Assembly (NCBI GenBank): GCA_012729555.1
Contig: JAAYCX010000042.1
Location: 1-39,239 of the forward strand
Source: Acidobacteriota bacterium
GTDB lineage: Bacteria; Acidobacteriota; UBA6911
Length of the DNA: 39,239 nucleotides
Reading direction: 5' to 3'
Every line of letters starts with the position of its first letter. Positions within the stretch are counted from its first letter, which is position 1. Below, piece after piece: positions 1 to 17,212 of the stretch. The notes under the pieces were generated by a model. That model was not told the origin of the DNA. It saw only the letters and a program-made list of their open reading frames with translations, and did not search any database. A program made the position numbers and the translations under genes.

Positions 1-175
1 CCCGGACCGACTCTTCCGATCCCTCCAGGCGGGCCGAGACCGTTGCACCCGGCAGACGGGCCCCGTCCGGCCCCGTGATGATGCCCAGCACCGCCGCGGG
101 ACTCTCCCCGGCGACGCCCGGGGCGGCACCCAGGGCGACCGCCAGCACTGCCATTATCCATATACATGTTCTCAT
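1..175 (-). CDS. Secreted carboxypeptidase-regulatory-like domain protein, N-terminal fragment
   Basis: The reading frame starts with ATG at 175 and runs off the left edge, giving 58 residues. It opens with a short Arg plus hydrophobic segment ending near PGVAG, a plausible Sec signal peptide. The following stretch (GIITGPDGARLPGATVSARLE) matches the start of a carboxypeptidase-regulatory-like (CarboxypepD_reg) beta-sandwich, the domain that often precedes TonB-dependent barrels or sits in large secreted proteins. A strong AGGAGG lies about 10 bases before the start. It is downstream of the Cys/His-rich gene on the same strand, with a probable terminator between them. Whether the missing part is a TonB-dependent receptor cannot be seen, so no substrate is proposed. 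Confidence 0.55.
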   Translation of the reverse strand, partial: MRTCIWIMAVLAVALGAAPGVAGESPAAVLGIITGPDGARLPGATVSARLEGSEESVR

Positions 176-234: not shown

Positions 235-663
235 CTATTTGGGAGGGGGGATCGGGATGGCCGGATCATGGGAGGCGCGGAGAACCCGGACGCGGGAGAC
301 CACCCCGGCGGATTCGAGACCGGGAAGGGGCGGCTGGGCCTCCGGGCAGACTGCGAGCGTCATCAGCAGCACGGAAACGCTGTCGGAGGGTTCGGGCTCC
401 GCCCCGTGCCCGCAGCCGGCGCCATGCTTGTGCACGCAGTGGTGGACCCCGTGCCCGTCGACGTAGCACAGGGCGGTGCAGCAGCTTCCGGTGTCGCACC
501 CGTCGGTGACGGCCGCGGCGTCGGCGCTGATCAGCAGAAAGGCGGCCGGGATGGGGAGCGCACAGGTCTCGACGAGCAGCATCAGCCCGAGCAGAAGGGG
601 GAAGGGGCGGAAGGCCGCCGCCAACCCCGGTCCTCTCTTCGATGCCGCCCGAAAAAGTTTCAT
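235..663 (-). CDS. Small Cys/His-rich membrane or secreted protein of the copper locus
   Basis: A 142-residue protein with a basic N-terminus and a long hydrophobic segment (about residues 19-45), either a signal peptide or a membrane helix. Then comes a compact Cys/His-rich stretch, from CDTGSCC through GVHHCVHKH to GAGCGHG, with about six Cys and six His within 40 residues, followed by a second weaker hydrophobic patch and a Pro-rich end. The composition suggests metal binding at the membrane or in the periplasm; this is inferred from composition and position only, and I do not recognise a named family. I chose the ATG at 663, which has GGGGGGCGA upstream, over an in-frame GTG at 690. Its promoter carries the same 43-bp element as the multicopper oxidase promoter, tying it to copper or metal control. 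Confidence 0.6.
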   Translation of the reverse strand: MKLFRAASKRGPGLAAAFRPFPLLLGLMLLVETCALPIPAAFLLISADAAAVTDGCDTGSCCTALCYVDGHGVHHCVHKHGAGCGHGAEPEPSDSVSVLLMTLAVCPEAQPPLPGLESAGVVSRVRVLRASHDPAIPIPPPK

Positions 664-713: not shown

Positions 714-742
714 TTTATATGCCCGTCCGGGAGCCGCGCCAA
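714..742 (-). promoter_or_regulatory. Predicted sigma-70-type promoter of the Cys/His-rich gene
   Basis: On the minus strand TTGGCG (-35, 737-742) is separated by 17 bases from TATAAA (-10, 714-719). The expected start of transcription is near 706, giving a leader of about 43 bases. The weak -35 abuts the shared 43-bp element, as expected for an activator-dependent promoter. Confidence 0.45.
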
Positions 743-782
743 TCAGGCGGATCCCTATTGGGGCCTTCCAAATCCCCTACCC
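740..782. promoter_or_regulatory. Copy A of a shared 43-44 bp promoter element
   Basis: This stretch is closely matched by 11243-11286. Both begin with CAATCAGG on the plus strand, contain CCCTATT followed by a G run, CTTCC, AAATCCC and a terminal CCC; only a few substitutions and one net indel separate them. In both places the element lies upstream of a minus-strand gene and its inner end (TGATTG on the minus strand) runs into the predicted -35 box. It fills the gap between the FKBP stop codon and the Cys/His-rich gene promoter. Confidence 0.65.
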
Positions 783-1474
783 TATTTGACGGCCAGGAGC
801 TCGATCTCGAACACCAGGGCCATGTTCGGGCCGATCTGGCTCCCCGCTCCCCTCTCCCCGTACGCCAGCCGGGCGGGGAGGAACACCTCCCATTTCGAAC
901 CCTCGGGCATGAGCTTCAGGACCTCGCTCCAGCCCGGGATCACGCCCCCCTGGATTTTGAAGGTCACGCTCTTTCCCATCTTGTAGGAGTTGTCGAATTC
1001 GGTGCCGTCGATGAAGGTCCCGCGGTAGTGGCATTCGGCGGAATCCGCGGCAGTGGGTATCTTCCCCGCGCCCGTCTCCAGAACCCTGTACTGGAGTCCG
1101 CTCGGGAGGACCGTGATCCCCTCCCGCTTCGCGTTCGCGGCGAGGAACGCCTCCCCTTCCTTCAGGTTCTTCTCGCTCGCCGCCTGGAACGCCTCCGCCT
1201 GCCTGCGCCGCAGTTCCTTCTGGAACGCGTTCATGGTCCGGGCCAGTTCCTCCTCCGTCAGAAGGAGCGGGGCGCCCGCGTGCGCGTCCCTCATCCCCCG
1301 GATCACGAGTTCCAGGTCGACCTCCAGCCCCTGGTTGCCGAAATTCCGGGCGACGCCCACCCCGATGCCGTAATTCACCTTGTCGACCTCCGATTCGAGG
1401 ACCGGGGTTTCCTGCGCCGGCAGCGATGCGCCCAGAAACGTCAGCGCCAAAAAAGCCTTGAGTCCGATATTCAT
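782..1474 (-). CDS. FKBP-type peptidyl-prolyl cis-trans isomerase, periplasmic
   Basis: A 230-residue protein of the Mip/FkpA type. Residues 1-20 (MNIGLKAFLALTFLGASLPAQ) form a Sec signal peptide. Residues about 25-125 are the helical N-terminal region with a Lys/Glu/Ala-rich linker, and residues about 140-230 are a complete FKBP domain with the typical Y-F-D and GVIPGW-type motifs (YRGTFIDGTEFDNS, GGVIPGWSEVL, LAYGERG) ending in VFEIELLAVK. It should speed proline isomerisation during folding of exported proteins. The start has GAGGAGGGAGATC upstream. It lies 186 bases downstream of the CusA-type pump on the same strand and may be read from the same transcript. Its placement suggests, but does not prove, a folding role for the metal-efflux proteins. 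Confidence 0.95.
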   Translation of the reverse strand: MNIGLKAFLALTFLGASLPAQETPVLESEVDKVNYGIGVGVARNFGNQGLEVDLELVIRGMRDAHAGAPLLLTEEELARTMNAFQKELRRRQAEAFQAASEKNLKEGEAFLAANAKREGITVLPSGLQYRVLETGAGKIPTAADSAECHYRGTFIDGTEFDNSYKMGKSVTFKIQGGVIPGWSEVLKLMPEGSKWEVFLPARLAYGERGAGSQIGPNMALVFEIELLAVK

Positions 1475-1660: not shown

Positions 1661-4600
1661 CTAACCGTTGAACTCCGGGACCTCGCCCGACACCGGGACG
1701 GCCTTCCCCCGCTTGAGCTCGAAATGCCATTTCCAGATCTCGTAGATGGCCGGGTAGACCAGCAGTTCGAGCAAAAACGACGTGAACACCCCCCCGATGA
1801 CGGGGGCCGCGATCCGCTTCATCACGTCCGAACCGGTCCCGGTGGCCCAGAGGATCGGCACCAGGCCGATGAAGTCCGTCGCCACCGTCATGAACTTGGG
1901 CCGGATGCGCCTCACGGCGCCGTGCACGATCGCCTCCCGCAACTGTCCGATCGTTCGGAGCTTCCCCTCCTTCCCGGCCTGCCGGTAGGACAGGTCGAGG
2001 TAGAGGAGCATGAACACCCCGGTCTCCGCGTCCACCCCCAGCAGGGCGATCAACCCGACCCAGACCCCGACGCTCATGTTGTAGCCGAGGAAATAGAGGA
2101 ACCAGATCGCGCCTATGGCCGAAAAGGGGACGGCCAGGACGACGATCATGGTCTTGACCGCGGAGCGGGTGTTCAGGTAGAGAAGCAGGAGGATCAGAAA
2201 CCCGGTGATCGGCACCACCAGCAGGAGCCGCTGGTTGACCCTCTCCATCGCCTCGTACTGGCCACTCCAGATGATGGCGTACCCGGGAGGGAGCGTCACC
2301 TTTTCGCGCACCACCTCCCGGGCTTCCTTCACGTAGCCGCCCGGGTCGCGGTCGTCGAGGTCGATGTAGACATAGCCGGTGAGGAGCCCGTTTTCGTTGC
2401 GGATCATGCCGGGGCCGCTGGCCGTATCGATCTCGGCCAGGTCGGAGAGCGGGATCTGGCGCTTCCCCCCCGCCGGGACCAGCACGCGCCCCAGCGCTTC
2501 CAGGTCGGAGCGGAAATCGCGCATGTAGCGGACATTGACCGGGTACCGCGCCCTCCCCTCGATGGTGGTGGTCACGTTTTCGCCGCCGATGGCGTTCTGC
2601 ACGGCGGTCTGGGCGTCGTCGATCGTCAACCCGTAGCGGGCCAGGGCGTCCCGGTTCCATTGGAAATCGAGAAAGTACCCCTCGGACGTCCTCTCGGAGA
2701 AGACGCTGCGCGTCCCCCTGACGGCGGGGAGGACCGCTTCCACCTGCATGCCGATCTCCTGGATCCTTTCGAGATCGTCCCCGTGGATCTTCAGGCCCAC
2801 GGGGGTCCGCATCCCGGTGCTCAGCATGTCGATGCGGGCCTTGATCGGCATGGTCCAGGCGTTGGAGACCCCCGGGACCTTCACGATTTCGTCCAACCGG
2901 TCCACGAGCTGCTCGGGCGACATCGTATCGGGCGTCAATCTCCGGAAGACCGGCTTGAGCCAGTCGGGGGCCCACGAGGAGTACCAGGTCGGCACCCGGC
3001 GCCACTCCGAACGCGGCTTGAGGGTGATGATGGTCTCCAGCATCGACAGCGGCGCGGGATCGGTCGAGGTCTCCGCGCGCCCCGCCTTGCCCAGCACCCG
3101 GTCCACCTCCGGCACCGACTGGATCAACCGGTCGGTGACCTGCAGCACCCGCTGCGCCTCCCCGATCGAGATCCCCGGCATGGTCGAAGGCATGTAGAAC
3201 AGGGCCTCTTCGTACAGCGGGGGCATGAACTCGGAGCCGAGCGACATGAAGACCGGGATGGTGGCCATCATGAGCATCAGGGCTCCCGCAATGACGACCC
3301 CCTTGTGCTCGAGCGACCACCTGCAGACCGGTTCGTAGAACCGTATCAGCCCCTTGCTGACGGGGTGATGGTCCTCGGACCGGATCCGGCCCACGAAGAG
3401 CGCGTTGGCCGTGCGGGACATCCACCGCGGGCGGAAGCTGAAGTTCCTGAGGTGGGTGAAGGTGAGGCGCAGCGCCGGGTCGAGGGTGATGGCCAGCATC
3501 GCGGCCACGATCATCCCCAGCGTTTTCGTATAGGCCAGCGGCTTGAACAGGCGCCCCTCCTGGGCCTCCAGGGCGAAAACCGGGATGAACGAGACGGCGA
3601 TGACGAGGAGGGCGAAGAAGCTCGTGCTCCCGACCTCCTTCACCGCCGAAATGACCACCTCGCGGTAATCCCCGCGCCGCCCCGAACCCTCCCAGACCTC
3701 GAGCTTCTTGTGCGCCTGCTCGACCACGACGATGGCCGCGTCCACCATGGCTCCGATGGCGATGGCGATCCCCCCGAGCGACATGATGTTGGCCGTGATC
3801 CCCATCCCCCGAAAGGGGATGAAGGCGATGAGGACGGCGACGGGGATGGTGATCATCGGGATCAGCGCGCTCGGGATGTGCCACAGAAAGAGGAGCACGA
3901 TGAGGGACACGGTGACGATCACCTCGATGACGGTGTTCCGCAGCGTGTTGATCGAATTGTGGATGAGCTCCGAACGGTCGTAGATCGGGACGACCCGGAC
4001 CCCGGGGGGGAGCCCCGGCTCGATCTGGCGGATCTTCTCCTTCACCCTCCCGATGACGTCGAGGGCGTTCTCCCCCTGGCGCATCACGATGATGCCCGAG
4101 ACGACATCGCCGGTCCCGTCCAGGTCCGCGACCCCGCGCCGGATATCGGGCCCGAGCGCCACCCGCCCGATGTCCTTGACGCGGATCGGGGTTCCGTTCC
4201 GGCTGGCGGCGACCACGACCGACTCGAGATCCTCGAGCGACCGGGCGTAACCGCGGCCGCGCACCATGTATTCGGCGCCGCCGAGTTCGATCAGGCGGCC
4301 GCCCGTTTCGCTGTTGCTGCCGCGGATGGCGTCGACCACGTCGTTGATCGGGATGTCGTAGAAAAGGAGCCGGTTCGGGTCCAGGCTCACCTGGTATTGC
4401 TTGCCGAACCCGCCGATGGGGGCTACTTCCGCGACCCCGGGCACCGAACGGAGGTGGTAGCGCAGGTACCAGTCCTGGAGCGACCGGAGGTCGGCCAGGG
4501 TATGGTTGCCGGAGGTGTCCTCCAGCACGTACTGGAAGACCCAGCCCAGCCCGGTGGCATCGGGCCCCAGTTCGGTTTTACACCCCTCCGGCAGCGACTG

Positions 4601-4951
4601 GAGCACCCCGGAGAGGTATTCGAGCGTGCGGGTGCGGGCCCAGTAGATGTCGGTCCCGTCATCGAAGATGACGTAGACGAACGAATACCCGAAATCGGAA
4701 AACCCGCGCACCGCCCGGACTCCCGGGGCCCCCAGCATGGCGGCCACGATCGGGTAGGTGACCTGGTCCTCGATGATGTCGGGGCTGCGGTCCCAGCGCG
4801 AATAGATGATGACCTGCGTGTCGCTCAGGTCCGGGATCGCGTCGAGCGCGACATGCTTCATCGACCACCAGCCGTAGATGGCGGCTACGGCCACGAGGGT
4901 GAGGACGATGAGGCGGTTGCGCGCGGAAAAATCGATGATGCGCGCGATCAT
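1661..4951 (-). CDS. cusA: CusA-type heavy-metal RND efflux pump (copper/silver)
   Basis: A 1096-residue inner-membrane proton antiporter of the HME-RND family, slightly longer than E. coli CusA (about 1047). It starts MIARIIDFSARNRLIVLTLV, the usual first membrane helix, and has the TM4 motif GIAIAIGAMVDAAIVVVEQAHKK with the proton-relay Asp (D404), plus E976 and K1019 in the matching helices. The three methionines that bind Cu(I)/Ag(I) in CusA are present: M587 (FYMPST), M637 (PLSMLET) and M709 (RIDMLSTG). This supports monovalent copper/silver rather than Zn/Co/Ni specificity. About 37 extra residues lie between the second and third methionine. The start ATG overlaps the stop of the adaptor gene (ATGA), so translation is probably coupled. 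No outer-membrane CusC-like gene accompanies it. Confidence 0.93.
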   Translation of the reverse strand: MIARIIDFSARNRLIVLTLVAVAAIYGWWSMKHVALDAIPDLSDTQVIIYSRWDRSPDIIEDQVTYPIVAAMLGAPGVRAVRGFSDFGYSFVYVIFDDGTDIYWARTRTLEYLSGVLQSLPEGCKTELGPDATGLGWVFQYVLEDTSGNHTLADLRSLQDWYLRYHLRSVPGVAEVAPIGGFGKQYQVSLDPNRLLFYDIPINDVVDAIRGSNSETGGRLIELGGAEYMVRGRGYARSLEDLESVVVAASRNGTPIRVKDIGRVALGPDIRRGVADLDGTGDVVSGIIVMRQGENALDVIGRVKEKIRQIEPGLPPGVRVVPIYDRSELIHNSINTLRNTVIEVIVTVSLIVLLFLWHIPSALIPMITIPVAVLIAFIPFRGMGITANIMSLGGIAIAIGAMVDAAIVVVEQAHKKLEVWEGSGRRGDYREVVISAVKEVGSTSFFALLVIAVSFIPVFALEAQEGRLFKPLAYTKTLGMIVAAMLAITLDPALRLTFTHLRNFSFRPRWMSRTANALFVGRIRSEDHHPVSKGLIRFYEPVCRWSLEHKGVVIAGALMLMMATIPVFMSLGSEFMPPLYEEALFYMPSTMPGISIGEAQRVLQVTDRLIQSVPEVDRVLGKAGRAETSTDPAPLSMLETIITLKPRSEWRRVPTWYSSWAPDWLKPVFRRLTPDTMSPEQLVDRLDEIVKVPGVSNAWTMPIKARIDMLSTGMRTPVGLKIHGDDLERIQEIGMQVEAVLPAVRGTRSVFSERTSEGYFLDFQWNRDALARYGLTIDDAQTAVQNAIGGENVTTTIEGRARYPVNVRYMRDFRSDLEALGRVLVPAGGKRQIPLSDLAEIDTASGPGMIRNENGLLTGYVYIDLDDRDPGGYVKEAREVVREKVTLPPGYAIIWSGQYEAMERVNQRLLLVVPITGFLILLLLYLNTRSAVKTMIVVLAVPFSAIGAIWFLYFLGYNMSVGVWVGLIALLGVDAETGVFMLLYLDLSYRQAGKEGKLRTIGQLREAIVHGAVRRIRPKFMTVATDFIGLVPILWATGTGSDVMKRIAAPVIGGVFTSFLLELLVYPAIYEIWKWHFELKRGKAVPVSGEVPEFNG

Positions 4952-6582
4952 TCGTGGGTGTGCATCCCGTGCATGTCCCCCTCCGCCATCGCGTGGACAT
5001 ACTTTTCGGGATCCGCCTCAAACCTCTCCCTGCACATTTCCGCGCAGAAGTAATACGTCTTCCCCTGGTACTCGGTTTTCAGGGTGCGGTCGGAAGCCGG
5101 GTCGACGTCCATGCCGCACACCGGGTCCTTCGCCGTCGCGACCTGGGACGGCGCCTCTTTTTTGGGGAGATACTTCGCCGGGTTCGCCTCGAAATTCTTC
5201 CTGCACATCTCCGAGCAGAAGTAATAGGTCTTGCCCTGGTGCCCGGTTTTCAGGGTGCGGTCGGAATTCGGGTCGACATCCATTCCGCACACCGGGTCCT
5301 TCACCGTCCCGGCCTTGGCGGACGCCGCGGCCGTTTGGCCCGCCGGCATTCTCATGCGGCTTTCGGAATCGATCAGGAAGTTGCCCGAGACCACGATCCG
5401 TTCGCCGGGTTCCAGCCCGCGGGTGACTTCCACGCGGTCGCCCAGGCGCCATCCGGTTTCCACCAGCCTCGGCTCGAACACCCCGGCTTCCCGCTCCAGG
5501 TAGACGGTCTTCCTGCGCCCCGAATCGATGACGGCGTCGGCGGGGACCGTCACGGCGTCGCGCCTCTCGATCTCGAGCTCGACGTCGACGAACATGTCGG
5601 GGAGCAGCACCTGTCCGGGGTTGTCCAGCTCGAACCGGGTCTGCAGGATGCGCGACTCGGAGTCGAACTGCGGGAGGGCGTCACTCATGCTGGCCTCGAG
5701 CTTCCGTCCCTGGTAGAGAACGGTCGCCTTCGTCCCCGGCGTCAGGAATTCCCGGTCCTTTTCGAAAATGTCGGTCAGGACCCACACCCGGCTGATGTCC
5801 CCGATGCGGTAGAACTCGGTCCCCTTGTCGAACCGCTGCTCGGGGGAGACGTTGCGCGCCAGGACGTAACCGGTGACGGGCGAGTAGATCTTGATGTCGG
5901 GCGCCGGGATGCGGGCCTTCTCGACATCGGCGATCTGGCGGTCGCTCATGCCGAGGTTGCGGAGCGAATCGACCGGGTACTGCGGGATCAGGCTCGTCCC
6001 GGTTTTGAGGGAACCGTAGCTGGCCGACCCTCTCTGCGCCGGGTTGTTGCCGCTGACGCTGACCAGGAACAGCTGCTCGGAGGCGAGCAGGTCCCGGGTG
6101 TAATAGGTGGCCAGCAGCTGGCCGCGCCTGACCGAGCGGCCGACCGTATTCGGCCCCAGCTCGAGGATCCACCCGTCGGTGGCCGCGATGACGCGGTAGA
6201 GCCGCTGATCGTCCACCGTCACCCGGCCGGGCACCCGCAGGACCTGGGAAGCGGAGGAACGACGGACTTCGTCGGTGCGCACGCCGATCAGCTGCCGCTT
6301 CGCGGAGCCGATCCGGACCGTCCCCGGCTCCTCGGAGCCGTGCGTGCCGGATGCGGCGCCCTCGCCGCCGGACGCCAGCGGTTCCAGGCGCATGCCGCAA
6401 ATGGGACAATCCATGGGGTGGTCGGAGCGGTATTGCGGGTGCATCGGGCAGGCGTAAACCGGCGCCTGCTCCGAGGCGGCTGAAGAGGTGGCGGGACCGA
6501 TGTGCCGGCTGGCCATGTATCCGGCAAAAAAGGTTCCCGCCACCAGGACCACAATGGTCATGAATCTCGCGGGCGTCTTCAT
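4948..6582 (-). CDS. cusB: CusB-type periplasmic adaptor with HMBD and two YHS domains
   Basis: A 544-residue adaptor that should link the RND pump to an outer-membrane channel. An N-terminal anchor (residues 8-24) is followed by a heavy-metal-binding domain at 44-68 (CPMHPQ then CPICGM), then the HlyD/CusB core with barrel-sandwich, hairpin and beta-barrel at about 88-412. The C-terminus carries two YHS domains: residues 429-472 (C432, C456, C460) and 486-529 (C489, C513, C517), each with VCGMDVDP and YYFC-x-EMC, ending in a Met/His-rich tail (HAMAEGDMHGMHTHE). E. coli CusB has neither the HMBD nor YHS domains and relies on the separate chaperone CusF; here metal capture and handover may be fused in. 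The start is preceded by AGAGGACTT. The stop overlaps the start of cusA by four bases. Confidence 0.9.
   Translation of the reverse strand: MKTPARFMTIVVLVAGTFFAGYMASRHIGPATSSAASEQAPVYACPMHPQYRSDHPMDCPICGMRLEPLASGGEGAASGTHGSEEPGTVRIGSAKRQLIGVRTDEVRRSSASQVLRVPGRVTVDDQRLYRVIAATDGWILELGPNTVGRSVRRGQLLATYYTRDLLASEQLFLVSVSGNNPAQRGSASYGSLKTGTSLIPQYPVDSLRNLGMSDRQIADVEKARIPAPDIKIYSPVTGYVLARNVSPEQRFDKGTEFYRIGDISRVWVLTDIFEKDREFLTPGTKATVLYQGRKLEASMSDALPQFDSESRILQTRFELDNPGQVLLPDMFVDVELEIERRDAVTVPADAVIDSGRRKTVYLEREAGVFEPRLVETGWRLGDRVEVTRGLEPGERIVVSGNFLIDSESRMRMPAGQTAAASAKAGTVKDPVCGMDVDPNSDRTLKTGHQGKTYYFCSEMCRKNFEANPAKYLPKKEAPSQVATAKDPVCGMDVDPASDRTLKTEYQGKTYYFCAEMCRERFEADPEKYVHAMAEGDMHGMHTHE
4996..5298 (-). 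repeat. Tandem duplication encoding two YHS domains
   Basis: Two 132-base units (5167-5298 and 4996-5127), 171 bases apart, remain highly similar at the DNA level, including long identical blocks around the VCGMDVDP and YYFC-x-EMC codons. This points to a fairly recent internal duplication, or gene conversion, rather than two independently acquired domains. Confidence 0.85.
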
Positions 6583-6608
6583 AAGTCCTCTGTCGATAAA
6601 AAGGTTGA

Positions 6609-6632: not shown

Positions 6633-6646
6633 GGTGGAGACTTCGG

Positions 6647-9600
6647 TTAGAAATTCGGACCGGTCCGTATGGGGAACGGCTGCGCGTTCGTCCAGGCGGA
6701 GGTACCGGTGGGCGTGATCGCCCGGATCCGGTAGTAGTAGACGGAGTTGCGATTCACGTTCTGGGTCAGCGGGCTGGCCGAATCGTTGAAGGTGGCCAGG
6801 TCCGAGGTGAAGGTGGAATTGGAGGCACGCTGGATCTCGAAACCGGTCGCGCTTCCCGCGTACTCCCAGCTCAGAGTCGCCCGGTAATGATTGCCCTGGG
6901 GCGCCACCGATACGGTTACGTTGGCCGGGGCCGCCAGGGCGGCCACCGTCACCGGCCAGTCGAGCGTGGCATAGGCCGAAGAGCCGGCCCCGTTGACCGC
7001 CTTCACGCGGTAGGAGTACCGCCTCCCACCCAGCACCGTGTTGTCGGAATAGGACGTCGTTCCCGCTCCCGCCAGGGCGATCTGGGCGTAGTCGCCGCAG
7101 GTGTTCGCCGGCGCCACGACCATGCAGCGCTCGATGACGAAACCCGTTTCGTTGTTGGAGTTGTCGGTCCAGGTCAGATCGACCTGGAGCCCCGACACCG
7201 ACGCGGAAAGGTTGCTCGGAGCCGCCGGCACCGAAGGCGCCGTCGGGGCGTTCCCCACCGGGACCATGATGGCGTCGGAGACCGAGTTGGCCGACATGGT
7301 CGGGAAGCCGATGGGGGAAGTGGGGTAGACCTGGGTGTCCCCGATCGTCTCGCCGATGGCGAATACCCGGTACCAGTACAGGGTGTTGTTCGGGGGCCTT
7401 CGATCCTGGAACGTCACGACGGACCCGATTTCGGGCGAGGGGTTGACGACGTCGAAGGTCGCCAGGCCCGTGCTGAAATCGGCGTTGGTCGCCCGCTGCA
7501 CCGTGAACCGGGCCTCCCGGGTGGAGTTGTCGGTCCACGAAAGGTTGACCCTCCGGTTGTTGCCGTTCCCGGTCACGTTGGCGGCGAGATCGGTGGGCGG
7601 CGACGGCGGGACCACGAACACCAGGGAGTGCATCATGTCCATCTCTTCGTGCGAGAGGATGTGGCAGTGCCACACGTACTCCCAGCCGAAGTTGACGTAA
7701 TGGTTGCGGATCTCCGGGATCGGGTTTCCGGCCGGGTCGAACCATCCCGCCGGCGGCGGCGGGATGAGGGTGGCCCCCTCCGGCATCGACGGGTCGATCA
7801 GCCGGATGCTGTCAGGCACCTCGAAGGGGAGCTGATCCTGCATCGGGATCGTCGGCCGCATCGCGATGTAGGTGACCTCGAGCGGATTGATCTTGAAGGT
7901 GTCCTTCCAGCCCAGTTCGGTCGGGTCGACCGGCTCCGTCCCCGCGGTCACCTGGCCGCTCTGGTCGACGCGGTTGATCAGCTGGGCGTGGAACAGGTGG
8001 GTGTGAACGGGGTGGGTGTCCACGCCGTTGTGGAAGATTCTCCAGATCTGGGTCCCGTCCGGCATGATGCCGATCGGCTTCGCCTCCATCGACCCCATCA
8101 CGATGTCGGTGGGGGGGGACGCCAGGCCATACGGAATCAGGACATGGATGGGGGAATTCAGGATACTGAGCCCCAGCATCCCGCTCATCCGGCCGAACAT
8201 GGTGTCGTACACGCCTCCCATTTCGTCGTGCATCGCCTTCATCTCGAGCGGCAGAGTGACGGGGGATTGAATCCCGCCCTGTTCGTCGATGGGATTGAAG
8301 GTCTTGGAGGTTTCGGCGATCTGGATGTACTGCTCGGCGGCCGAAGCCGGGAACGACTGGTTGTAGGCGCTGTTGTAGGCTTCCTGGGGGATGATGATCG
8401 GATCCTGGGAAACCTCGAACACCCCGCGCTTCGAATCGGTCTTCGCGAAGACCGCTTCCAGGTTTTCGAAGGTGACGTCGGGGGTGGGCACGGCCGCAGC
8501 CGCGGCCACCCGGATCTGCATGACGGTCCGGGTGTTGGGGCCGTAGCCGGGCAGGGTGTTGGGCGCCGCGCCGGAGTCCATCTGGTTGCCGTTCCCCGTG
8601 TAGTTGTCAAAAGGGGCGGCGCCCGCCGGGACCGGCGCCGGCGCGTCGTTATAGAGGATGAGGGTCTTGCCCGCGTAGGCGCTGAAATCGACCACCACGT
8701 CCGCCCGCTCGGCCGCGCCGATGTAGAGGGAGTGCTGGTTGACGATCCCGTAGCTGAAGTAGCCCTTGTCGAGGTTCCAGCCGACCGGCTGCTGCGGCAC
8801 CCGGACCGGCTTCGGCATGAAGCCCCCCTCGGTGCCGATCATCCACCATTCCGGTCCCGCCGTTTCGGGATCGGGCACCCCGCTCTCGAGCGCCCCGTCC
8901 TGGTTGTCCGGAAGCACGCTCACCGGCACCATTTTCACCTCGGTGCACAGGGAGGGGTCCGTGACCGCGCCGTCACACAGCACGGTTGCGCTGCCGCTCT
9001 CGTTGGCCGTGGTCGGGGTATTCTTGTCCGCCGCCACGTAGAGCTGCAGGTTGACGAAGCGGTCGTTGGACGCGTTCAGGACGCGGAACCGGTAAGCCTT
9101 GGGCTCCACCTCCAGGAAGGGATAGGGGGTTCCGTTGACCAGCATCGTGTCAAAGAAGCTCTCTCCCGGCATGGAAGGATTGGGCACGCCGGGCATCATC
9201 GGCGGTTCCCAGGGGGCCGTGCACTCGGCGTTGACCGCGTCCGGCAGGCCGTCGCAGATCGGCTGGTAGTAGGGGTTCGGAACCGGGCCGACCTCGATGC
9301 AGCCCACCGGCGACCCTTCGGTGCATTCCGGGGTCGGCGGGTTGAACCAGGGCCCGTAGTGCCACTTGCCGAAGGCGTTGGTGCCGGTGAGGTCCCACGG
9401 GTTCTGGACCGTCATGTAGACATGCGGGTACCAGAGGTCGCCGGTACGGGCGGCGCCGGGCGTCACGCCCCAGTTCCAGGTAGGGTCCTGGGCGTAGATC
9501 GTCTCGGCGTCGACGAAGGTCTTGTCCTGGATGACCAGCGGGATTCCAAGGCCCGGCAGGACCTCGAGGCCGTCCGGGTTGACGCCGGTCACGTTGGTGC

Positions 9601-11047
9601 CGTGGATCATGTCCTGCTCCACCGCATCGGTCAACAGGTACCCGGCCGCCTGGCCGGAGTAGACGTTGAGGCGGGTGATGCCGTGGGCATGGTCATGGTA
9701 GAACTGCAGCCGGGCGCTCTGGGCGTTGGTGTAATAGAGCGTCATGCACCCGCTGCCCCCCGGGAGAAGCGGCTCGTTCGGGTCGGAGGAGCAGCCGTCC
9801 ATGTCGGGGACGTTGCGCGCGCTGACGCCGGCGGGATACGGGGTGTTCTCCCCCGCCGGGGTGATCCACTGGTGGACGTTACCGTCGCTCAGCCAGATGG
9901 TGTTGTTGCCGTGCAGATGGACGGTGGCCCGGTTCTGCGTGTACATGTCGTACGCGCCTCCCGGTCCGGCCGGGCCGTACCCGGCGCCCATGACCGTCTC
10001 GTCCACCGGCAGGAAGAGGTCTCCCCCCTCACCGGTGGGGAGCAGGTTGTAGAACTTGATGCGCACCGGCACCGGGGTCCCCTGCTCGGCCACGGCCACA
10101 TCCGGATCCTTCTGGATTCCGTGCACCCGCCCCCGTGCGACGATGGTGGGCCCGAGATAGTGCGGTCGAGTGGCGCCGTAAGCCTGCGCCCCCCCGATCT
10201 GGATGTTTTCGGTCAGCCCGTTCTCGGTCGTCAGCGGCACGGCCGAATAGCTGTTTCCCAGGACGTCCGTGCCTGACCATCCCTGGGGAACGATCTGCAC
10301 GTAGCCCCGCAGCCTGGTCGGCGGCAGGTCGGAGTGCAGCTGTTCCTCGTACTCGACCAGGGCGATTTCGTAGTAGTCGGCCATCTGGCCGCTGAACCGG
10401 TCGGTGGTTTCCGGAACCCCGACGGGGATGAACTGCCCGAGGTCGTTGGCCGCGCCGGAGCCGAGCCCAGGCAGGCGGTTGACAAACTTGCGGATGCCGC
10501 CCGAAAGGTCGGCGAGGATGGGGGTCGCTTCCGCCCCCGTCCCGGTGGGGTCGGTGATCACAACCATCGGGGCGGTGTACCCGGTCCCCGCGGCGTCGAC
10601 GGTGATGCTTTCAATCACACCTCCATTCAATACGGCCGTCGCGCTGGCGCCGGTGCCGGTCTTGTATACATCGAGAATCTCCACGGTGGGGCCGGTGTAA
10701 CCGCTCCCGCCGTTGTCGACGGCGATCGAGCCGATCGAACCCTTGGGCAGCGGGCTGAAGGCCCAGTTGCCGTAGGGGCCGAAATAGTGGGGAACCCCGC
10801 CGGGGCCTTCGATTCCCTCGGGCGCCGCGGCGCTTTCCAGGGCGGCGGCGCCGGGGAGCAGGCCGATCTCGGCCGCACGCTCGGCGGCCGCCTTCTGCTC
10901 CTGGGTCGTCAGCTTCCCGCCCCTATAGGTGACTTTCTTTTCTTTTTTGGCCGTCGGCTGCGCCTGCACCTGGCTTGCACCCAGGGCGAGCGCCATCAGC
11001 GCCAAAAAGAGGAGACGCACAGATATCCAATCCTTGTGCCTCTTCAT
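6647..11047 (-). CDS. Giant multicopper oxidase with three C-terminal fibronectin-III domains
   Basis: A 1466-residue exported protein; residues 1-30 form a Sec signal peptide without a twin-arginine motif. Residues 103-184 hold two copies of a Gly-rich unit (GSGYTGP, GTGYTAP). The oxidase core spans about 220-1148 and keeps all four copper motifs: HLHG (H377, H379), HDHAHG (H451, H453), HPVHTH (H1012, H1015, H1017) and HCHILSHEEMDMM (H1127, C1128, H1129, H1133, axial M1138). It is of the CotA/bilirubin-oxidase kind. Three FnIII domains follow (about 1149-1262, 1272-1368, 1372-1462). A four-electron oxidase using O2 is expected; with cusBA, periplasmic Cu(I) oxidation is a reasonable role, though phenolic or Mn(II) substrates are possible. 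CotA- and CueO-type enzymes are about 500 residues. AAAGGAG supports the ATG at 11047. Confidence 0.92.
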   Translation of the reverse strand: MKRHKDWISVRLLFLALMALALGASQVQAQPTAKKEKKVTYRGGKLTTQEQKAAAERAAEIGLLPGAAALESAAAPEGIEGPGGVPHYFGPYGNWAFSPLPKGSIGSIAVDNGGSGYTGPTVEILDVYKTGTGASATAVLNGGVIESITVDAAGTGYTAPMVVITDPTGTGAEATPILADLSGGIRKFVNRLPGLGSGAANDLGQFIPVGVPETTDRFSGQMADYYEIALVEYEEQLHSDLPPTRLRGYVQIVPQGWSGTDVLGNSYSAVPLTTENGLTENIQIGGAQAYGATRPHYLGPTIVARGRVHGIQKDPDVAVAEQGTPVPVRIKFYNLLPTGEGGDLFLPVDETVMGAGYGPAGPGGAYDMYTQNRATVHLHGNNTIWLSDGNVHQWITPAGENTPYPAGVSARNVPDMDGCSSDPNEPLLPGGSGCMTLYYTNAQSARLQFYHDHAHGITRLNVYSGQAAGYLLTDAVEQDMIHGTNVTGVNPDGLEVLPGLGIPLVIQDKTFVDAETIYAQDPTWNWGVTPGAARTGDLWYPHVYMTVQNPWDLTGTNAFGKWHYGPWFNPPTPECTEGSPVGCIEVGPVPNPYYQPICDGLPDAVNAECTAPWEPPMMPGVPNPSMPGESFFDTMLVNGTPYPFLEVEPKAYRFRVLNASNDRFVNLQLYVAADKNTPTTANESGSATVLCDGAVTDPSLCTEVKMVPVSVLPDNQDGALESGVPDPETAGPEWWMIGTEGGFMPKPVRVPQQPVGWNLDKGYFSYGIVNQHSLYIGAAERADVVVDFSAYAGKTLILYNDAPAPVPAGAAPFDNYTGNGNQMDSGAAPNTLPGYGPNTRTVMQIRVAAAAAVPTPDVTFENLEAVFAKTDSKRGVFEVSQDPIIIPQEAYNSAYNQSFPASAAEQYIQIAETSKTFNPIDEQGGIQSPVTLPLEMKAMHDEMGGVYDTMFGRMSGMLGLSILNSPIHVLIPYGLASPPTDIVMGSMEAKPIGIMPDGTQIWRIFHNGVDTHPVHTHLFHAQLINRVDQSGQVTAGTEPVDPTELGWKDTFKINPLEVTYIAMRPTIPMQDQLPFEVPDSIRLIDPSMPEGATLIPPPPAGWFDPAGNPIPEIRNHYVNFGWEYVWHCHILSHEEMDMMHSLVFVVPPSPPTDLAANVTGNGNNRRVNLSWTDNSTREARFTVQRATNADFSTGLATFDVVNPSPEIGSVVTFQDRRPPNNTLYWYRVFAIGETIGDTQVYPTSPIGFPTMSANSVSDAIMVPVGNAPTAPSVPAAPSNLSASVSGLQVDLTWTDNSNNETGFVIERCMVVAPANTCGDYAQIALAGAGTTSYSDNTVLGGRRYSYRVKAVNGAGSSAYATLDWPVTVAALAAPANVTVSVAPQGNHYRATLSWEYAGSATGFEIQRASNSTFTSDLATFNDSASPLTQNVNRNSVYYYRIRAITPTGTSAWTNAQPFPIRTGPNF

Positions 11048-11215: not shown

Positions 11216-11245
11216 AATGTATGATTTGCGTGACCTCGGTCACAA
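11216..11245 (-). promoter_or_regulatory. Candidate promoter of the multicopper oxidase
   Basis: On the minus strand TTGTGA (11240-11245) and TACATT (11216-11221) are 18 bases apart, each matching four of six consensus bases. The shared element lies directly upstream of the -35, as at the other promoter carrying it. The leader would be about 160 bases long. Confidence 0.35.
11229..11244. promoter_or_regulatory. CRP/FNR-family-like palindrome
   Basis: CGTGACCTCGGTCACA matches TGTGA-N6-TCACA at nine of ten defined positions and has perfect GTGACC/GGTCAC arms. It overlaps the candidate -35 of the oxidase promoter. No CRP/FNR-family gene lies in the window, so the binding protein is unknown. Confidence 0.45.
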
Positions 11246-11318: not shown

Positions 11319-11347
11319 TTGCGGGGGAATGCGGGAGGTATTATAAT
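11319..11347 (+). promoter_or_regulatory. Promoter of the NarL-type response regulator
   Basis: A perfect TATAAT (11342-11347) lies 17 bases after TTGCGG (11319-11324), a weak -35 matching only TTG. The start of transcription would be near 11354, giving a leader of roughly 40 bases to the ATG at 11393. Confidence 0.5.
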
Positions 11348-11392: not shown

Positions 11393-12088
11393 ATGACCGG
11401 CAGCATGCAATCGGACGAGCGGAAGGGGACCGGCCGCAAAACGGTAAGGGTCGTGCTCGCCGACGACCACAAGATCCTCCGCTCGGGGATGTGCGGCCTG
11501 CTGGAAAGCGAGCCCGGCATCGAGGTCGTGGCCCAGGCGGAGGACGGCCGGACGGCGGTCCGGCTCTGCCGCGAACACCGCCCCGACGTCGTCCTCATGG
11601 ACATCTCCATGCACGACATGAACGGCATCGAAGCCACCCGCCAGATCATCGGCCATTCCCCCGGGGCGAAGGTCATCATCCTCTCGATGTATTCGGGGCA
11701 GAAGTTCGTCGCGGACGTGTTCAAGGCGGGGGCTTCGGGGTACCTGCTGAAGGACTGCGACTTCGACGAAGTGCTCTCCGCCATCCGCGCGGTGCTCTCG
11801 GGCGAGACCTACCTCTGCCCCCAGGTCGCCACCGTCCTGCGCAACGATTACGTGCAGAAGATCCTCCAGACCGAAACCCCCGCCGCCCCCCTCTCCCCCC
11901 GGGAGCGCGAGGTGCTGCAGCTCCTGGCCGAGGGGAAGTCGACCAAGGAGATCGCCTGGTCCTTCAACCTGAGCGTGAAGACGATCGAGGTCCACCGCCA
12001 GAAGATCATGGAGAAGCTCGATATCCACAGCGTCGCCGAGCTGACCAAGTACGCGGTCCGAGAAGGCCTGACCCCCCTCGAACCCTGA
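11393..12088 (+). CDS. NarL/FixJ-family DNA-binding response regulator
   Basis: A 231-residue two-domain regulator. Residues 17-133 are a receiver domain with the acidic pair D24/D25, phospho-acceptor D70 (VVLMDISM), S98 and K120 (YLLKD). Residues 165-225 are a LuxR-type helix-turn-helix (SPREREVLQLLAEG, STKEIAWSFNLSVKTIEVHR). Phosphorylation by a HisKA_3 kinase should switch DNA binding on; two such kinases lie within 6 kb. I chose the ATG at 11393, which has AGGAAG about a dozen bases upstream, and not the upstream in-frame start, because the receiver begins only about 17 residues in. It is divergent from the multicopper oxidase, whose promoter carries the shared element, so control of the copper genes is likely but inferred. 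Confidence 0.9.
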   Translation: MTGSMQSDERKGTGRKTVRVVLADDHKILRSGMCGLLESEPGIEVVAQAEDGRTAVRLCREHRPDVVLMDISMHDMNGIEATRQIIGHSPGAKVIILSMYSGQKFVADVFKAGASGYLLKDCDFDEVLSAIRAVLSGETYLCPQVATVLRNDYVQKILQTETPAAPLSPREREVLQLLAEGKSTKEIAWSFNLSVKTIEVHRQKIMEKLDIHSVAELTKYAVREGLTPLEP

Positions 12089-12225
12089 CTCCCGGGCGCA
12101 TCCCGGACCCGCCCCTCAGGGTTTTATACCCCCTCCCATGGGGGAAACCCCGATACACCCCGGCACCCCCTGCGAAGATAATGACGCTGTCTCTCCCCTT
12201 TATGGTCCATTTCGGGGCTCGGAAC
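12089..12225. other. GC-rich gap with short inverted repeats
   Basis: A 137-base gap between the two regulators. It contains CCCCC-TCCCAT-GGGGG and nearby runs of C and G that could fold into a hairpin but lacks a T tract. It loosely recalls the shared promoter element but does not align well. In-frame ATGs at 12181 and 12202 could extend the next gene upstream. Confidence 0.3.
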
Positions 12226-12606
12226 ATGGGCAGACCCATCCGGATTCTATTGGCTGACGATCACCCGGCCCTGAGGAAGAGTCTTGCCCGCGTCCTGGAG
12301 CGGGAGGAGAGCCTGGAGGTGGTGGGGGAGGCGTCCGACGGGCGGATGGCCGTGGATCTTGCCCGCGAACTCCGCCCGGACGTGATCGTCATGGACGTGC
12401 AGATGCCGGGACTCGACGGCATCGAGGCGACCCGGCGGATCGCCCTGGCTCAACCCGGAACCCGGGTGATCGGCTATAGCCTCAACCCGTCCGGGAGCAT
12501 CGCCGAGGCCATGCGCCGGGCCGGCGCGGCCTCGTGCCTCGGCAAAAACGAGCCGGTCGCCGCCCTGATCCGCGTCATCCGTGCCTTCCGGCCTCGGGAG
12601 GTTTAG
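12226..12606 (+). CDS. Receiver-only response regulator
   Basis: A 126-residue single receiver domain with acidic pair D11/D12, phospho-acceptor D57 (VIVMDVQMPG) and K107 (CLGKNE); the usual beta-4 Thr/Ser position reads GYSLN. There is no output domain, so it should act by protein contact, as a phosphate sink, or as a relay partner. Its sequence is closest in style to the NarL-type receivers next to it, which fits loss of the helix-turn-helix after duplication. The ATG at 12226 has only a weak upstream GGGGCTCGGA; two earlier in-frame ATGs are possible. It converges with the sensor kinase, and the two genes share stop-codon bases (12603-12606). Confidence 0.83.
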   Translation: MGRPIRILLADDHPALRKSLARVLEREESLEVVGEASDGRMAVDLARELRPDVIVMDVQMPGLDGIEATRRIALAQPGTRVIGYSLNPSGSIAEAMRRAGAASCLGKNEPVAALIRVIRAFRPREV

Positions 12607-14582
12607 ACATCGGGAACGGGCCAGGAAGCCCTGACCTCGGTCCCCTCGCCGGGAGCGGACCTGAACTGGAGCGAACCGCCGCTCAGTTCGGCCCGTTCCC
12701 TCATGCTGAAAAGCCCCAGGTTCCTTCCCTGCCCGCCGGCGGAGGATGTTTCCCCCGGGTCGCACCCGGCCCCGTTATCCGAGATCCTCAGTTCGATCCG
12801 TTCCCCCTTGCCGATCCCGACGGCGATCCGGTCGGCATGACTGTGCTTGGCGGCGTTGTTCATCGCCTCCTGGAGAATGCGGAAGATCGGCACCTTCAGG
12901 GCGTCGGGGACCTCCGGCTCGGTGATGTCGATTTTCAGGGAGACATCCACCCCCTTGTAGGTCGCGCGGAAATTTTCGCAGAAATCGGCCATCGTTTCGA
13001 GCAGCCCCATCACGTCCAGGTACGCGGGGCGCAGGTCGTTCTGGATCCTGCGCACCTCGTCGATCGCCTCCCGGATCATCCCGACCAGGGCATTCAGCTC
13101 CCCTGAGATCGCGGGGAGGGCGCTCCCGGCCATCCGGACGCACCCCTCCGCGCGGTATTTCATGGCGGCCAGCGACTGGCCGATGCCGTCGTGAATCTCG
13201 TAAGCCAGCCACTTCCGCTCCTTCTCCTGCGAGTCGATGACCTGGCGCGACAGCAGCCGGCACGACCGCTCCGAGTCGCGCAGCGCGCTTTCCATCCTGC
13301 GCTGCTCGATGATGAGCTGCACGCCGGAGGCGAACGCCTCCAGCTGCCGGACATCCTCGTCGTCGTAACCGGTCTCCTTGTTCGCCGCCACGACGATGGC
13401 GACGATCCGGTTGTGGCCGAAGACGGGCACCATCAGGACCCGGGTGAGGGGGACGTGGCCCTCCGGCAGCCCCTTCTTCCCCGGGTGGTCCGCCGCGTAG
13501 TCGTTCACGATCACCACCCGCCGCTGCCGGACCGCCTCCGCCCAGATTCCGGCGCCGGCGATCTCGAATTCCTCCGGGCGCGGGGAGATCCCGCACTCGG
13601 AGAGCGCGTCCCGGGACCAGGAATACATCGTCATCCGGCTCTCCTCCTGGTTCACGAAACCGTAAAAGGCATAGCGGCTGCGCGTCATCCGGAGCGTGCC
13701 TTCAAGGATATGGTCGCAGAGGTCGCCCGCTTCCGCGTTCACCTTCTCGGCGATGCCCCAGAGGGCGCGCAGGCGCTCCTCGGCCCGGGCGCGCTCCAGC
13801 ACCTCGGCTTCCAGCCGGTCGTTGACCCCGGCCAGTTCGGCCGTCCGCTCCCTGACGCGGCCCTCCATTTCGTCGCGCGCCCGGCGCAGCTCCTCCTCGC
13901 TGCGCCGAAGAGATTCCACCATCCTCGCCAGGCGCCGGGCCTGGGCCTGGAGGCGGGCGATGATGGGATTGGTGACCCGGATGAAGGGCAGGGCCCCGGC
14001 CAGCACCACCACGCTGGCGATGATCATGGCGAGGAGCCCCGCCCGCGCGAAGGGGACCCTCAGCTCCGCGAGATCCACCTTGGCGACGATGCCCCAGCCC
14101 AGGGCGGGAACGGGTTCGTAGGCCGCGAGCACCTTCACCCCCCTGTAATCCAGCCCCACCATGCTGCCCGAACCGCCCAGCAGCGCCATCCTCATCGGCT
14201 CGGCCAGGCCCGAGTCGAGCGGGACCGGGACCTGTTTGTCCTCCCGGTAGCGATGGTCCAGGATGAAGACGATGTCGTCGCCCACCCGCTTGGCCAGCTT
14301 GAACTCCCCGGTATGGCCGATCCCCTCGAAATGCTTGTGCGCTTCGGCCACCTTCTGCAGCAGCTCGCCTTCCAGGTCGCCGGATGCGTCGGGCGCCCTC
14401 CCGCCGCCGGTGTCCGTCAGTTCCTCGATGAGGCGGGCGTGGTTCCGGGCGATGGAGACGAGGATATCGCGCTGCTCCTCGAACGCCACCCGATAGAGAA
14501 GGAGGACGGCGGTGGCCGTGGACGCCACGCAGGCGCCCGCCATGATCGCGATCAGCAGCAGGACTCGCTTTTTTCCGCTCAC
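12603..14582 (-). CDS. Membrane sensor histidine kinase with Cache-like and GAF domains
   Basis: A 659-residue NarX/DegS-type kinase. TM1 is at 7-30, followed by an extracytoplasmic Cache-like sensor (about 31-180, with LGWGIVAKVD near its end), TM2 at about 183-203, a coiled coil (210-270), a GAF domain (about 272-425), a HisKA_3 dimerisation/phospho-acceptor region with H464 (YEIHDGIGQSLAAMKYR), and HATPase_c (about 560-655; N box EAMNNAAKH, SDNGAG, a GLFSMRER G2 box). It should phosphorylate NarL-type regulators such as the one at 11393. A GTG start at 14582 is preceded by GGAG at good spacing. The ligand is not evident; metal sensing is only suggested by the neighbourhood. Confidence 0.92.
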   Translation of the reverse strand: MSGKKRVLLLIAIMAGACVASTATAVLLLYRVAFEEQRDILVSIARNHARLIEELTDTGGGRAPDASGDLEGELLQKVAEAHKHFEGIGHTGEFKLAKRVGDDIVFILDHRYREDKQVPVPLDSGLAEPMRMALLGGSGSMVGLDYRGVKVLAAYEPVPALGWGIVAKVDLAELRVPFARAGLLAMIIASVVVLAGALPFIRVTNPIIARLQAQARRLARMVESLRRSEEELRRARDEMEGRVRERTAELAGVNDRLEAEVLERARAEERLRALWGIAEKVNAEAGDLCDHILEGTLRMTRSRYAFYGFVNQEESRMTMYSWSRDALSECGISPRPEEFEIAGAGIWAEAVRQRRVVIVNDYAADHPGKKGLPEGHVPLTRVLMVPVFGHNRIVAIVVAANKETGYDDEDVRQLEAFASGVQLIIEQRRMESALRDSERSCRLLSRQVIDSQEKERKWLAYEIHDGIGQSLAAMKYRAEGCVRMAGSALPAISGELNALVGMIREAIDEVRRIQNDLRPAYLDVMGLLETMADFCENFRATYKGVDVSLKIDITEPEVPDALKVPIFRILQEAMNNAAKHSHADRIAVGIGKGERIELRISDNGAGCDPGETSSAGGQGRNLGLFSMRERAELSGGSLQFRSAPGEGTEVRASWPVPDV

Positions 14583-14630: not shown

Positions 14631-14758
14631 CCGTTATCACACTATGGACCAGATCCGCCCGGAATGCAAAAACACCCTTTTCGGCACGAACCGCTCCCCC
14701 CGCCGCGCCGGATTTTGCTATGATACGTTCACCTCCGGCGAAAGGAACGACGAAGCCG

Positions 14759-17212
14759 ATGCCGCCCCAGAACGATCCGAAGCGCGCCGACAGTTCCGGC
14801 AGGGATGCCCGGGAAGCGCCGCGCCTCAGCGAAGCCATGTACCGGGAGCTGGTCGAGATCCTGGCCATCGGCACCGACATCAGCGAGCGCCTCCGGATCG
14901 ATGGGGCGCTCAGGGAGAGCGAGGAAAAATTCCGCAGCGCCTTCGCCAACGCCACCGTCGGCTTCGCCATGACGGACCCTTCGGGCCGGTTCCTCGACGC
15001 CAATGCGGCCTACTGCCGCATCACGGGGCGTACCATCGACGAATTGCGGGCCCTGCGGTTCCAGGACCTGATCCACCCGCAGGACTCGGCCGAAAACGTG
15101 AGGCTGATCGACCGCATGCTTTCCGGGCGGATATCCGACTTCGCGGTGGACAACCGCTACCTTCGCAAGGACGGGGACAGCGTCTGGGTCCACAAGAACG
15201 TCTCGCTGGTGCGAGCGGCGGGGGGGGAGCCGAAATGGATCCTCGCCCTCATCCAGGACATCACCGCTCAGAAGCGGGCCGAGGAGTCGATGCTGCAGAG
15301 CGAAGCGCGGCTGAGGGCGCTGGCCGAGGGGCTCCCCGAGATCGTATGGACGGCAAACACCCGGGGGGACATCGAGTGGTTCAACCGCCGCTTCTACGAA
15401 TACACCGGTGAGGACGTCGACCCGGCGGGAGAGAGCGGCTGGAGCGGAATCGTGCACCCGGACGATCTCGCCCCCACCGTCGCGACCTGGGAAAAATCGG
15501 TACGGGAAGGAACGCTGTTCGAGCATGAGCTGCGCACGAGAGGGAGGGACGGCGGGTACCGGTGGTTCCTGGTGCGCGCCTGGCCGATGCTGGACCCGGA
15601 AGGGAGGATCGTCCGCTGGTTCGGCACGAGCACCGACATCCACCGCCTCAAGGAAACCGAGGCGGCCCTGCGGCAGAGCCGGGAGGATTTCACCCGGGCC
15701 CAGGAGGTCGGGCAGATCGGGTGGTGGCGCCTCGACCTGCGCAAGGATATCCTGACCTGGTCGGACGAGAACTACCGGACCTTCGGAATTCCGGCCGGGA
15801 CCCCCATGAATTACGAAAAGTTTCTGGCCACCGTGCACCCGGAGGACCGCGACCAGGTAGACCGCGCATGGCGGGCGGGCATACAGAGCGGGTCCTACGC
15901 CATCGAGCACCGCATCCTGGCCGGGGGGGAAACCCGCTGGGTGAGAGAAAAGGCCTACCCGGAATTTGACGGGGAGGGGAGCCTTCTGGGCGGCTTCGGC
16001 ATCTCCCAGGACATCACGGAACGGATGAAGGCCGAGCAGGAGGTCCGCAGGCTGAACGAGACGCTGGAACGGCGGGTGGCGGAGCGGACGGCCGAGGTCA
16101 GGCAGCAGGCCGACCAGCTGCGCGCTCTCGCCAACCAGCTCAGCCAGGCGGAGCTGCGGGAGCGCAGGCGCCTGGCGGGCATCCTGCACGACCATATCCA
16201 GCAGCTCATCGTGGCCGCCCGCATGCAGCTGGGCCGGTTGAAGCGCGACTCCGGCCGGGGGCGGATGGAGGAGACGGCCGCCGACATCGACGCCATCCTG
16301 ATGGAGGCCCTGGAGGCCTCCCGGTCCCTTACCATGGACCTCAGCCCCCCCGCCCTCCACGAATCGGGCCTCGCCGGGGCCCTGGAATGGCTGGCCGCAA
16401 GCATCGGGGAGAAGACCGGCACCCGGGTGACCCTGTGCACCGACAAGACGGCCGAACCGGCGGGAGAGGAGATGCGGTTCCTCCTGTTCGAATGCGCGCG
16501 CGAACTCCTCTTCAACGCCGTCAAGCACGCGGCCGTCGCCGAGGTCGGGCTGGGGCTCTGGCGGACCGACGACGGGAGGATCAAGCTGATCGTGTCGGAC
16601 CGGGGGAAGGGGTTCGATCCCGGCATCCTCCGGAACCGCAGGCCCGGGGAGATGACGTTCGGACTGTTCAGCGTCCAGGAACGGCTCATGCATATGGGCG
16701 GCTGCATGGAGGTGGACTCGGCCCCCGGGAGGGGGACCGTCGTCACCCTCTGGGCCCCGGCCGGCGACCGTCCCCTCTCCGCCGGCGGGGAGCCTCCGCA
16801 ATCGCCGGTGGAGAGGGGCATCCGCGCCGTCTCGCACCGGCGCCGGAGGTGCCGCGTCCTGATCGTGGACGATCACAAGATCATGCGCGACGGCCTGAAG
16901 GGGCTGCTGCAGTTCGAATCGGATATCGAGGTCGTCGGCGGCGCGGCCGACGGCGCCGAGGCCATGGCGCTCACCCGGGAGCTGAGGCCCGACGTCGTCA
17001 TCATGGACGTCAACCTCGGGAAGATGACGGGGATCGACGTCAGCCGCAGGATCAAGGCCGAAATCCCGAACACGAACATCATCGGGCTGTCGATGCACCT
17101 CGACTCCCAGATCGCCGAAGCCATGAAGGAAGCGGGGGCCGTGGCCTATCTCAGCAAGGGGGGGCCCGCCGAGGACCTCATCGCCACCATCCGCGGCTGC
17201 GCCTCCGGGTAG
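14759..17212 (+). CDS. Multi-PAS hybrid histidine kinase with C-terminal receiver
   Basis: An 817-residue soluble hybrid kinase with no membrane segment. Three PAS domains lie at about 55-175, 180-300 and 308-425, each followed by the usual QDIT or TDIH tail. A coiled coil leads to the HisKA_3 region with H477 (LHDHIQQLIVAARM), then HATPase_c (about 565-668; FNAVKHA, SDRGKGFDPG). The last 120 residues are a receiver with D750 (VIMDVNLGK) and K800 (YLSKGG), similar to NarL-type receivers. Redox, oxygen or small-ligand sensing by PAS is possible but no cofactor residues are evident. The track of M codons begins at 14720, but that ATG lies in TGCTATGAT, which looks like an extended -10, so I place the start at 14759. 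It ends two bases from the convergent beta-barrel gene. Confidence 0.9.
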   Translation: MPPQNDPKRADSSGRDAREAPRLSEAMYRELVEILAIGTDISERLRIDGALRESEEKFRSAFANATVGFAMTDPSGRFLDANAAYCRITGRTIDELRALRFQDLIHPQDSAENVRLIDRMLSGRISDFAVDNRYLRKDGDSVWVHKNVSLVRAAGGEPKWILALIQDITAQKRAEESMLQSEARLRALAEGLPEIVWTANTRGDIEWFNRRFYEYTGEDVDPAGESGWSGIVHPDDLAPTVATWEKSVREGTLFEHELRTRGRDGGYRWFLVRAWPMLDPEGRIVRWFGTSTDIHRLKETEAALRQSREDFTRAQEVGQIGWWRLDLRKDILTWSDENYRTFGIPAGTPMNYEKFLATVHPEDRDQVDRAWRAGIQSGSYAIEHRILAGGETRWVREKAYPEFDGEGSLLGGFGISQDITERMKAEQEVRRLNETLERRVAERTAEVRQQADQLRALANQLSQAELRERRRLAGILHDHIQQLIVAARMQLGRLKRDSGRGRMEETAADIDAILMEALEASRSLTMDLSPPALHESGLAGALEWLAASIGEKTGTRVTLCTDKTAEPAGEEMRFLLFECARELLFNAVKHAAVAEVGLGLWRTDDGRIKLIVSDRGKGFDPGILRNRRPGEMTFGLFSVQERLMHMGGCMEVDSAPGRGTVVTLWAPAGDRPLSAGGEPPQSPVERGIRAVSHRRRRCRVLIVDDHKIMRDGLKGLLQFESDIEVVGGAADGAEAMALTRELRPDVVIMDVNLGKMTGIDVSRRIKAEIPNTNIIGLSMHLDSQIAEAMKEAGAVAYLSKGGPAEDLIATIRGCASG

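Follow-up and report, generated by a model that had tools for sequence, protein, structure and literature searches.

A predicted two-site operator of a NarL/LuxR-type response regulator at a copper locus in Acidobacteriota

Elements A and B, two similar stretches of a predicted copper locus, are very probably the operators of the NarL/LuxR-type regulator encoded beside B. Each would hold two sites for the regulator and serve to activate a promoter of the locus. This reading is drawn from comparison of the sequence with that of related genomes. The window is the whole stretch of DNA that was analysed, 39,239 nucleotides of an Acidobacteriota bacterium (contig JAAYCX010000042.1), and its relevant features are collected in Table 1.

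Table 1. Features of the window that bear on the predicted operators.
Feature	Position	Strand	Description
TonB-dependent receptor gene start	1..175	minus	Cut by the window end; the G004 counterpart matches a TonB receptor
Cys/His-rich small protein	235..663	minus	From ORF and sequence; first gene after A
Promoter of A	714..742	minus	-35 TTGGCG (737-742), 17 nt, -10 TATAAA (714-719); from sequence
Element A	740-782	minus	Two-site predicted operator; 40-bp core 740-779; TMRGG half-sites 22 bp apart; GATTG end
FKBP-type isomerase	782..1474	minus	Gene next to element A
CusA/CzcA-family heavy-metal efflux pump	1661..4951	minus	NCBIfam TIGR00914 above cut-off
CusB/CzcB-like metal efflux adaptor	4948..6582	minus	YHS and heavy-metal-binding domains
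Multicopper-oxidase-like protein	6647..11047	minus	Pfam Cu-oxidase_2; first gene after B
Promoter of B	11216..11245	minus	-35 TTGTGA (11240-11245), 18 nt, -10 TACATT (11216-11221); from sequence
Element B	11243-11285	minus	Two-site predicted operator; 40-bp core 11243-11282; proximal part TAGGG-N4-CCCTG
Likely regulator-gene promoter	11319..11347	plus	TTGCGG-17-TATAAT, divergent from B; sequence match only
NarL/LuxR-type response regulator	11393..12088	plus	Pfam Response_reg and GerE; proposed DNA-binding protein, divergent from B
Element C (proposed)	12117..12156	plus	Degraded copy about 30 bp past the regulator stop codon, before the receiver-only gene
Receiver-only protein	12226..12606	plus	Pfam Response_reg only; downstream of C
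HK1, GAF and HisKA_3 sensor kinase	12603..14582	minus	Pfam; candidate partner; convergent
HK2, PAS hybrid HisKA_3 kinase with receiver	14720..17212	plus	Pfam; candidate partner

Element A, the reverse complement of 740-782, reads GGGTAGGGGATTTGGAAGGCCCCAATAGGGATCCGCCTGATTG, and element B, the reverse complement of 11243-11285, reads GGTTAGGGATTTTGGAAGCCCCGAATAGGGGACCCCCTGATTG. The two are identical at 35 of 43 bases without a gap. Elsewhere in the window the best match reaches 25 positions. When the window was simulated 60 times with a first-order Markov model, the best match averaged 24.7 and never exceeded 28. The near-identity that the original prediction described for 740-782 and 11243-11286 therefore exceeds the simulated maximum, with the correction that the ungapped register of B stops at 11285. 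The flanking stretches are unrelated (only 20-33% matching). As had been proposed, A and B have the same orientation, each facing a downstream minus-strand gene. The proximal part of A reads TAGGG-N4-GCCTG. A strict pattern of 23 fixed bases with up to three mismatches finds exactly two copies, A and B, in the 3.83-Mb genome, rather than the many random copies of a dispersed repeat. Half-sites give no grounds for claiming a larger regulon, as the proximal half alone does little better than its control in this genome (43 matches versus 30).

Along the minus strand, B is followed by the genes for the multicopper-like protein, the CusB-like adaptor, the CusA/CzcA pump and the FKBP-type isomerase, then by A, the Cys/His-rich protein and the TonB-dependent receptor. 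The family search with the Cys/His-rich protein was without match. The stop codon of the FKBP gene touches A. Among the 297 genomes searched with the strict pattern (this genome and relatives), only one other, G004, contains it. G004 belongs to the same genus, is about 95% identical in DNA here, and has one copy of the element before each of the same two genes. There the FKBP stop codon is the start of A, which thus occupies a very short gap and is kept all the same.

The NarL-type regulator gene that the original prediction placed beside B is indeed present. Its product has the NarL/FixJ (LuxR-HTH) architecture, with Response_reg (1.1e-27) and GerE (5.1e-20) domains above cut-off, and its translation contains a phosphorylation pocket, read by eye, of ADDH, LMDIS, LSM and LLKD (acidic pair, Asp, Ser/Thr, Lys). 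The regulator gene is followed by the receiver-only gene, the convergent GAF/HisKA_3 kinase gene and then the PAS hybrid HisKA_3 kinase gene. Relatives of HK2 directly precede orthologs of the regulator, as seen by tblastn at the ortholog loci.

Both elements run directly into a promoter-like sequence. The TTG of the terminal GATTG begins the -35 at A and at B, as originally noted, and a -10-like hexamer lies 17-18 nt further on. A strict sigma-70 scan does not report these promoters because their -35 hexamers are weak, a result consistent with the weak -35 originally described; the likely regulator promoter likewise goes unreported by that scan. The register was tested with the hexamer that starts with the terminal TTG of the element taken as the -35. 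Over 14 sites from across lineages, agreement with a -10 hexamer is on average highest at 17 nt after this -35, and the score observed at 16-18 nt is matched by none of 5000 shuffles. The TMRGG half-sites lie 22 bp apart, about two helical turns, and the proximal site has its centre about 44 bp before the start predicted from the -10. By the established promoter classes, such spacing would be expected if an activator touches RNA polymerase at a weak -35. Taken with its recurrence across the phylum, described below, the element is best read as the operator of this regulator clade, with two sites abutting a weak -35 as for an activator. It could instead be bound by the same regulator acting as a repressor or roadblock, since the proximal site touches the -35 and a protein bound there could block RNA polymerase. 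This is rather unlikely; activation agrees better with the weak -35, the fixed -10 register and the placing of the sites entirely before the -10. A CRP/FNR-like palindrome, TGTGACCGAGGTCACG, was also observed at 11229-11244, sharing bases with both the -35 and the spacer of promoter B. It is kept in G004 with one base changed (TGTGACCGACGTCACG) and could be a second control on B.

The assignment of the element to the regulator rests on its recurrence. In a comparison of more than 400 genomes of the phylum, the 40-bp consensus TMRGG-N2-TTTnGAA-N8-TMRGG-N4-YCCYGATTK recurs next to orthologs of the regulator. Orthologs with an adjoining element are mostly 51-55% identical to it, and the element usually lies shortly after the regulator gene. 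In G114 and G294, which belong to another family and whose regulators are 51-53% identical, a few hundred bases separate the element from the regulator gene, and 27 of 28 consensus positions are matched. In G065, G100, G069 and G104 it lies 35-121 bp after the ortholog. In G301 a weaker copy, which outscores every other site on its strand, lies 52 bp past the ortholog. A matrix made from the window and G004 copies alone has the element as its top site at five ortholog loci, with none of 200 shuffles as good. At G104 the element is also the top site of this matrix, but 14 of 200 shuffles equal it. A matrix built without the window sequence ranks B first and A second in the window, with scores of 42.7 and 35.9 versus a control of 11.5.

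The consensus TMRGGNNTTTNGAANNNNNNNNTMRGGNNNNYCCYGATTK, with up to three mismatches, has 22 matches in 396 genomes versus one for the reversed pattern. Matches with three mismatches in G386, G238, G254 and G095, and with two in G259, apparently fall within coding regions and were put down to chance. Because sites adjoining the regulator were the first used to build the consensus, only the test on fresh genomes is free of that bias. These genomes, from family f35 (the family of G114), were left out of pattern building but are relatives of training genomes. They hold 11 sites at two mismatches or fewer; six of the 11 adjoin an ortholog 53-55% identical, and one, where a contig starts, is followed by the same amidase.

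In a tree of the regulators, all full-length ones with an adjacent element that were placed fall in one clade (support 100/99). The clade has 17 entries, 10 with an adjacent element and seven without a clear one. A recognisable adjoining element was not found at the clade members in G012 (60% identity), G019, G008 and G006, nor at a paralog encoded in this genome. The assignment of A, 10.5 kb distant from the regulator gene, follows from its similarity to B. The same-clade paralog might compete for the elements. A and B might even be the operators of another regulator altogether, either this NarL-type paralog or a metal sensor, with the regulator beside B linked to them by the clustering of signalling genes. 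The copies of the element in G008 and G031, which stand apart from any regulator gene, would agree with this. The alternative is nevertheless improbable, as several families, and fresh genomes too, have the element beside orthologs of the regulator, and none adjoins the paralog or its G006 and G008 orthologs. That A and B, as two similar stretches in one locus, are a dispersed repeat, a recent duplication or a chance similarity of no regulatory meaning is scarcely credible given a similarity beyond simulated chance, only two genomic copies in unrelated flanks, conservation in other families with an unvarying register to the promoter, and the fresh-genome sites.

Taking the element as the operator of the neighbouring regulator, we infer a course that would begin with an inducing signal and the phosphorylation of the regulator by a partner kinase, HK1 and/or HK2. 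Dimers of the regulator would then occupy the two sites along the same face of the helix. At the promoter-proximal site, which abuts the -35, the bound regulator would help RNA polymerase at the weak -35. B would switch on the multicopper-protein, CusBA and FKBP genes, and A would switch on the genes for the Cys/His-rich protein and the TonB receptor. The activator-dependent promoters originally proposed are favoured by the recurrence of the element beside orthologs at a conserved -35/-10 register, with activation itself deduced from that arrangement.

The genes downstream of the element differ between lineages. They encode an AmtB-type ammonium transporter in G104 (and in G301, by sequence), a DUF1573 protein in G065 (and in G100 and G077, by sequence), and a small basic ORF followed by an AMIN amidase in G069, G294 and kin. 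In G008 the downstream gene encodes an FAD-binding protein resembling, by its sequence, a succinate-dehydrogenase flavoprotein, and in G031 it encodes a glycosyltransferase. The copper locus is a target only in this genome and G004. The upstream regions of multicopper-protein homologs in other genomes contain other DNA, and the element is absent from those checked. The original prediction had called for a scan of this genome and its relatives for sites upstream of metal genes, and such genes were found downstream only in these two genomes. Its undescribed metal regulon is therefore only half right and is not supported in the form proposed: in this genome the pattern finds A and B alone, and the targets in other lineages differ. 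What is conserved across lineages is the regulator-operator pair, with the link to metal a local one.

The pair would be an old module of the phylum whose targets have been exchanged between lineages and here include a copper/heavy-metal locus. In a more tentative reading of the same sequences, to which we give somewhat less than an even chance, this uncharacterised regulator clade would carry its long two-site predicted operator as a portable cassette, commonly placed directly behind the regulator gene. Any gene that came to adjoin the cassette would pass under the regulator's control, in this case a copper-efflux locus. If so, the copper response would be NarL-type rather than OmpR-type. The comparison provides a specific predicted regulator-operator pair with a ready consensus for genomes where no such pair was found described, and an example of one regulator-DNA pair kept while target genes change between lineages. 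In the literature searched, whose coverage mostly excluded subscription papers, there was no description of the operator.

The regulator was compared with known systems. The operator of NreC has the letters TAGGG-N4-CCCTA. The likeness here is in a NarL-type regulator and in GC-rich inverted half-sites resembling this pattern before promoters. The originally proposed NreC-like pattern is present as TAGGG-N4-CCCTG in B; across lineages, however, the half-site is TMRGG/CCYGA, and nothing marks the regulator as NreC. The system also differs in its 40-bp two-site element, its conserved TTTnGAA block and its targets. NreC of Staphylococcus is a NarL-type activator with a GC-rich palindrome (PMC8139620, PMC5694512). 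Linkage to an NreB-type iron-sulfur kinase was not found, the neighbouring kinases being of the GAF/HisKA_3 and PAS hybrid types. No oxygen, nitrate or nitrite genes were seen beside the element, and the linked genes in the window are those of metal efflux.

The closest solved structures are those of VraR/LiaR, NarL and DevR, which share the receiver and LuxR-type DNA-binding architecture of the regulator. The sequences of their operators differ from the element. The full-length scores of the regulator fall far short of the curated NCBIfam cut-offs for named NarL-type equivalogs such as MctR (186.9/300), UvrY/GacA (183.5/280 for UvrY) and NarL (152.4/250). A further likeness, to CusR, CopR and AgrR, is the two-component control of a Cus-type efflux locus, which is predicted here. 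The copper-silver regulators CusR and CopR belong to the OmpR/PhoB family and have other boxes. AgrR is also of the OmpR/PhoB family (PMC7380067). The regulator here is NarL-type and not OmpR/PhoB, so that a copper locus under NarL-type control is predicted, in contrast to the OmpR-type regulators of known two-component copper systems.

Element C is the third-best matrix site in the window and is not above the control (11.4 vs 11.5); its G004 copy is clearly above it (26.1 vs 0). C is succeeded by TACACC-17-GATAAT (12154-12182), in which GATAAT has the same register as at the other copies, and its position shortly after the regulator gene is of the same kind as in the orthologs. By sequence, C is proposed to control the receiver-only gene. 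A separate observation is that ATGGGGGAAACCCC, at 12140-12156, also occurs in the regulator/multicopper intergenic region of G255 (L119), and it is perhaps a different operator common to both. L119 has, at about 6200-10700, the arrangement seen in the window, with a NarL-type regulator (divergent) and an HK1-like kinase (convergent) accompanying a multicopper homolog. The G255 regulator sits on a long branch outside the clade and is without an element of the A/B type. Sequence resembling HK1 residues 91-183 (39-41% identical) also lies near multicopper homologs in G114 and G294 (L116, 13106-13384; L117, 13054-13332), hinting at a sensor tied to the multicopper protein.

G409, G414 and G415 (L170, L173 and L179) each have another copy of the element, at a distance from the regulator; G414 and G415 are among the fresh genomes of family f35. 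In G414 and G415 this site precedes the same small membrane protein, and the downstream sequence in G409 is similar. Further shared genes follow the small membrane protein in these loci, which are, on sequence, a likely additional target in the genus of G409, G414 and G415. In G077 (L159, about 9600-9900), the counterpart of the regulator reads as the ATPase part of a kinase joined straight to a LuxR-type HTH without a receiver, which is either a real fusion or an assembly error.
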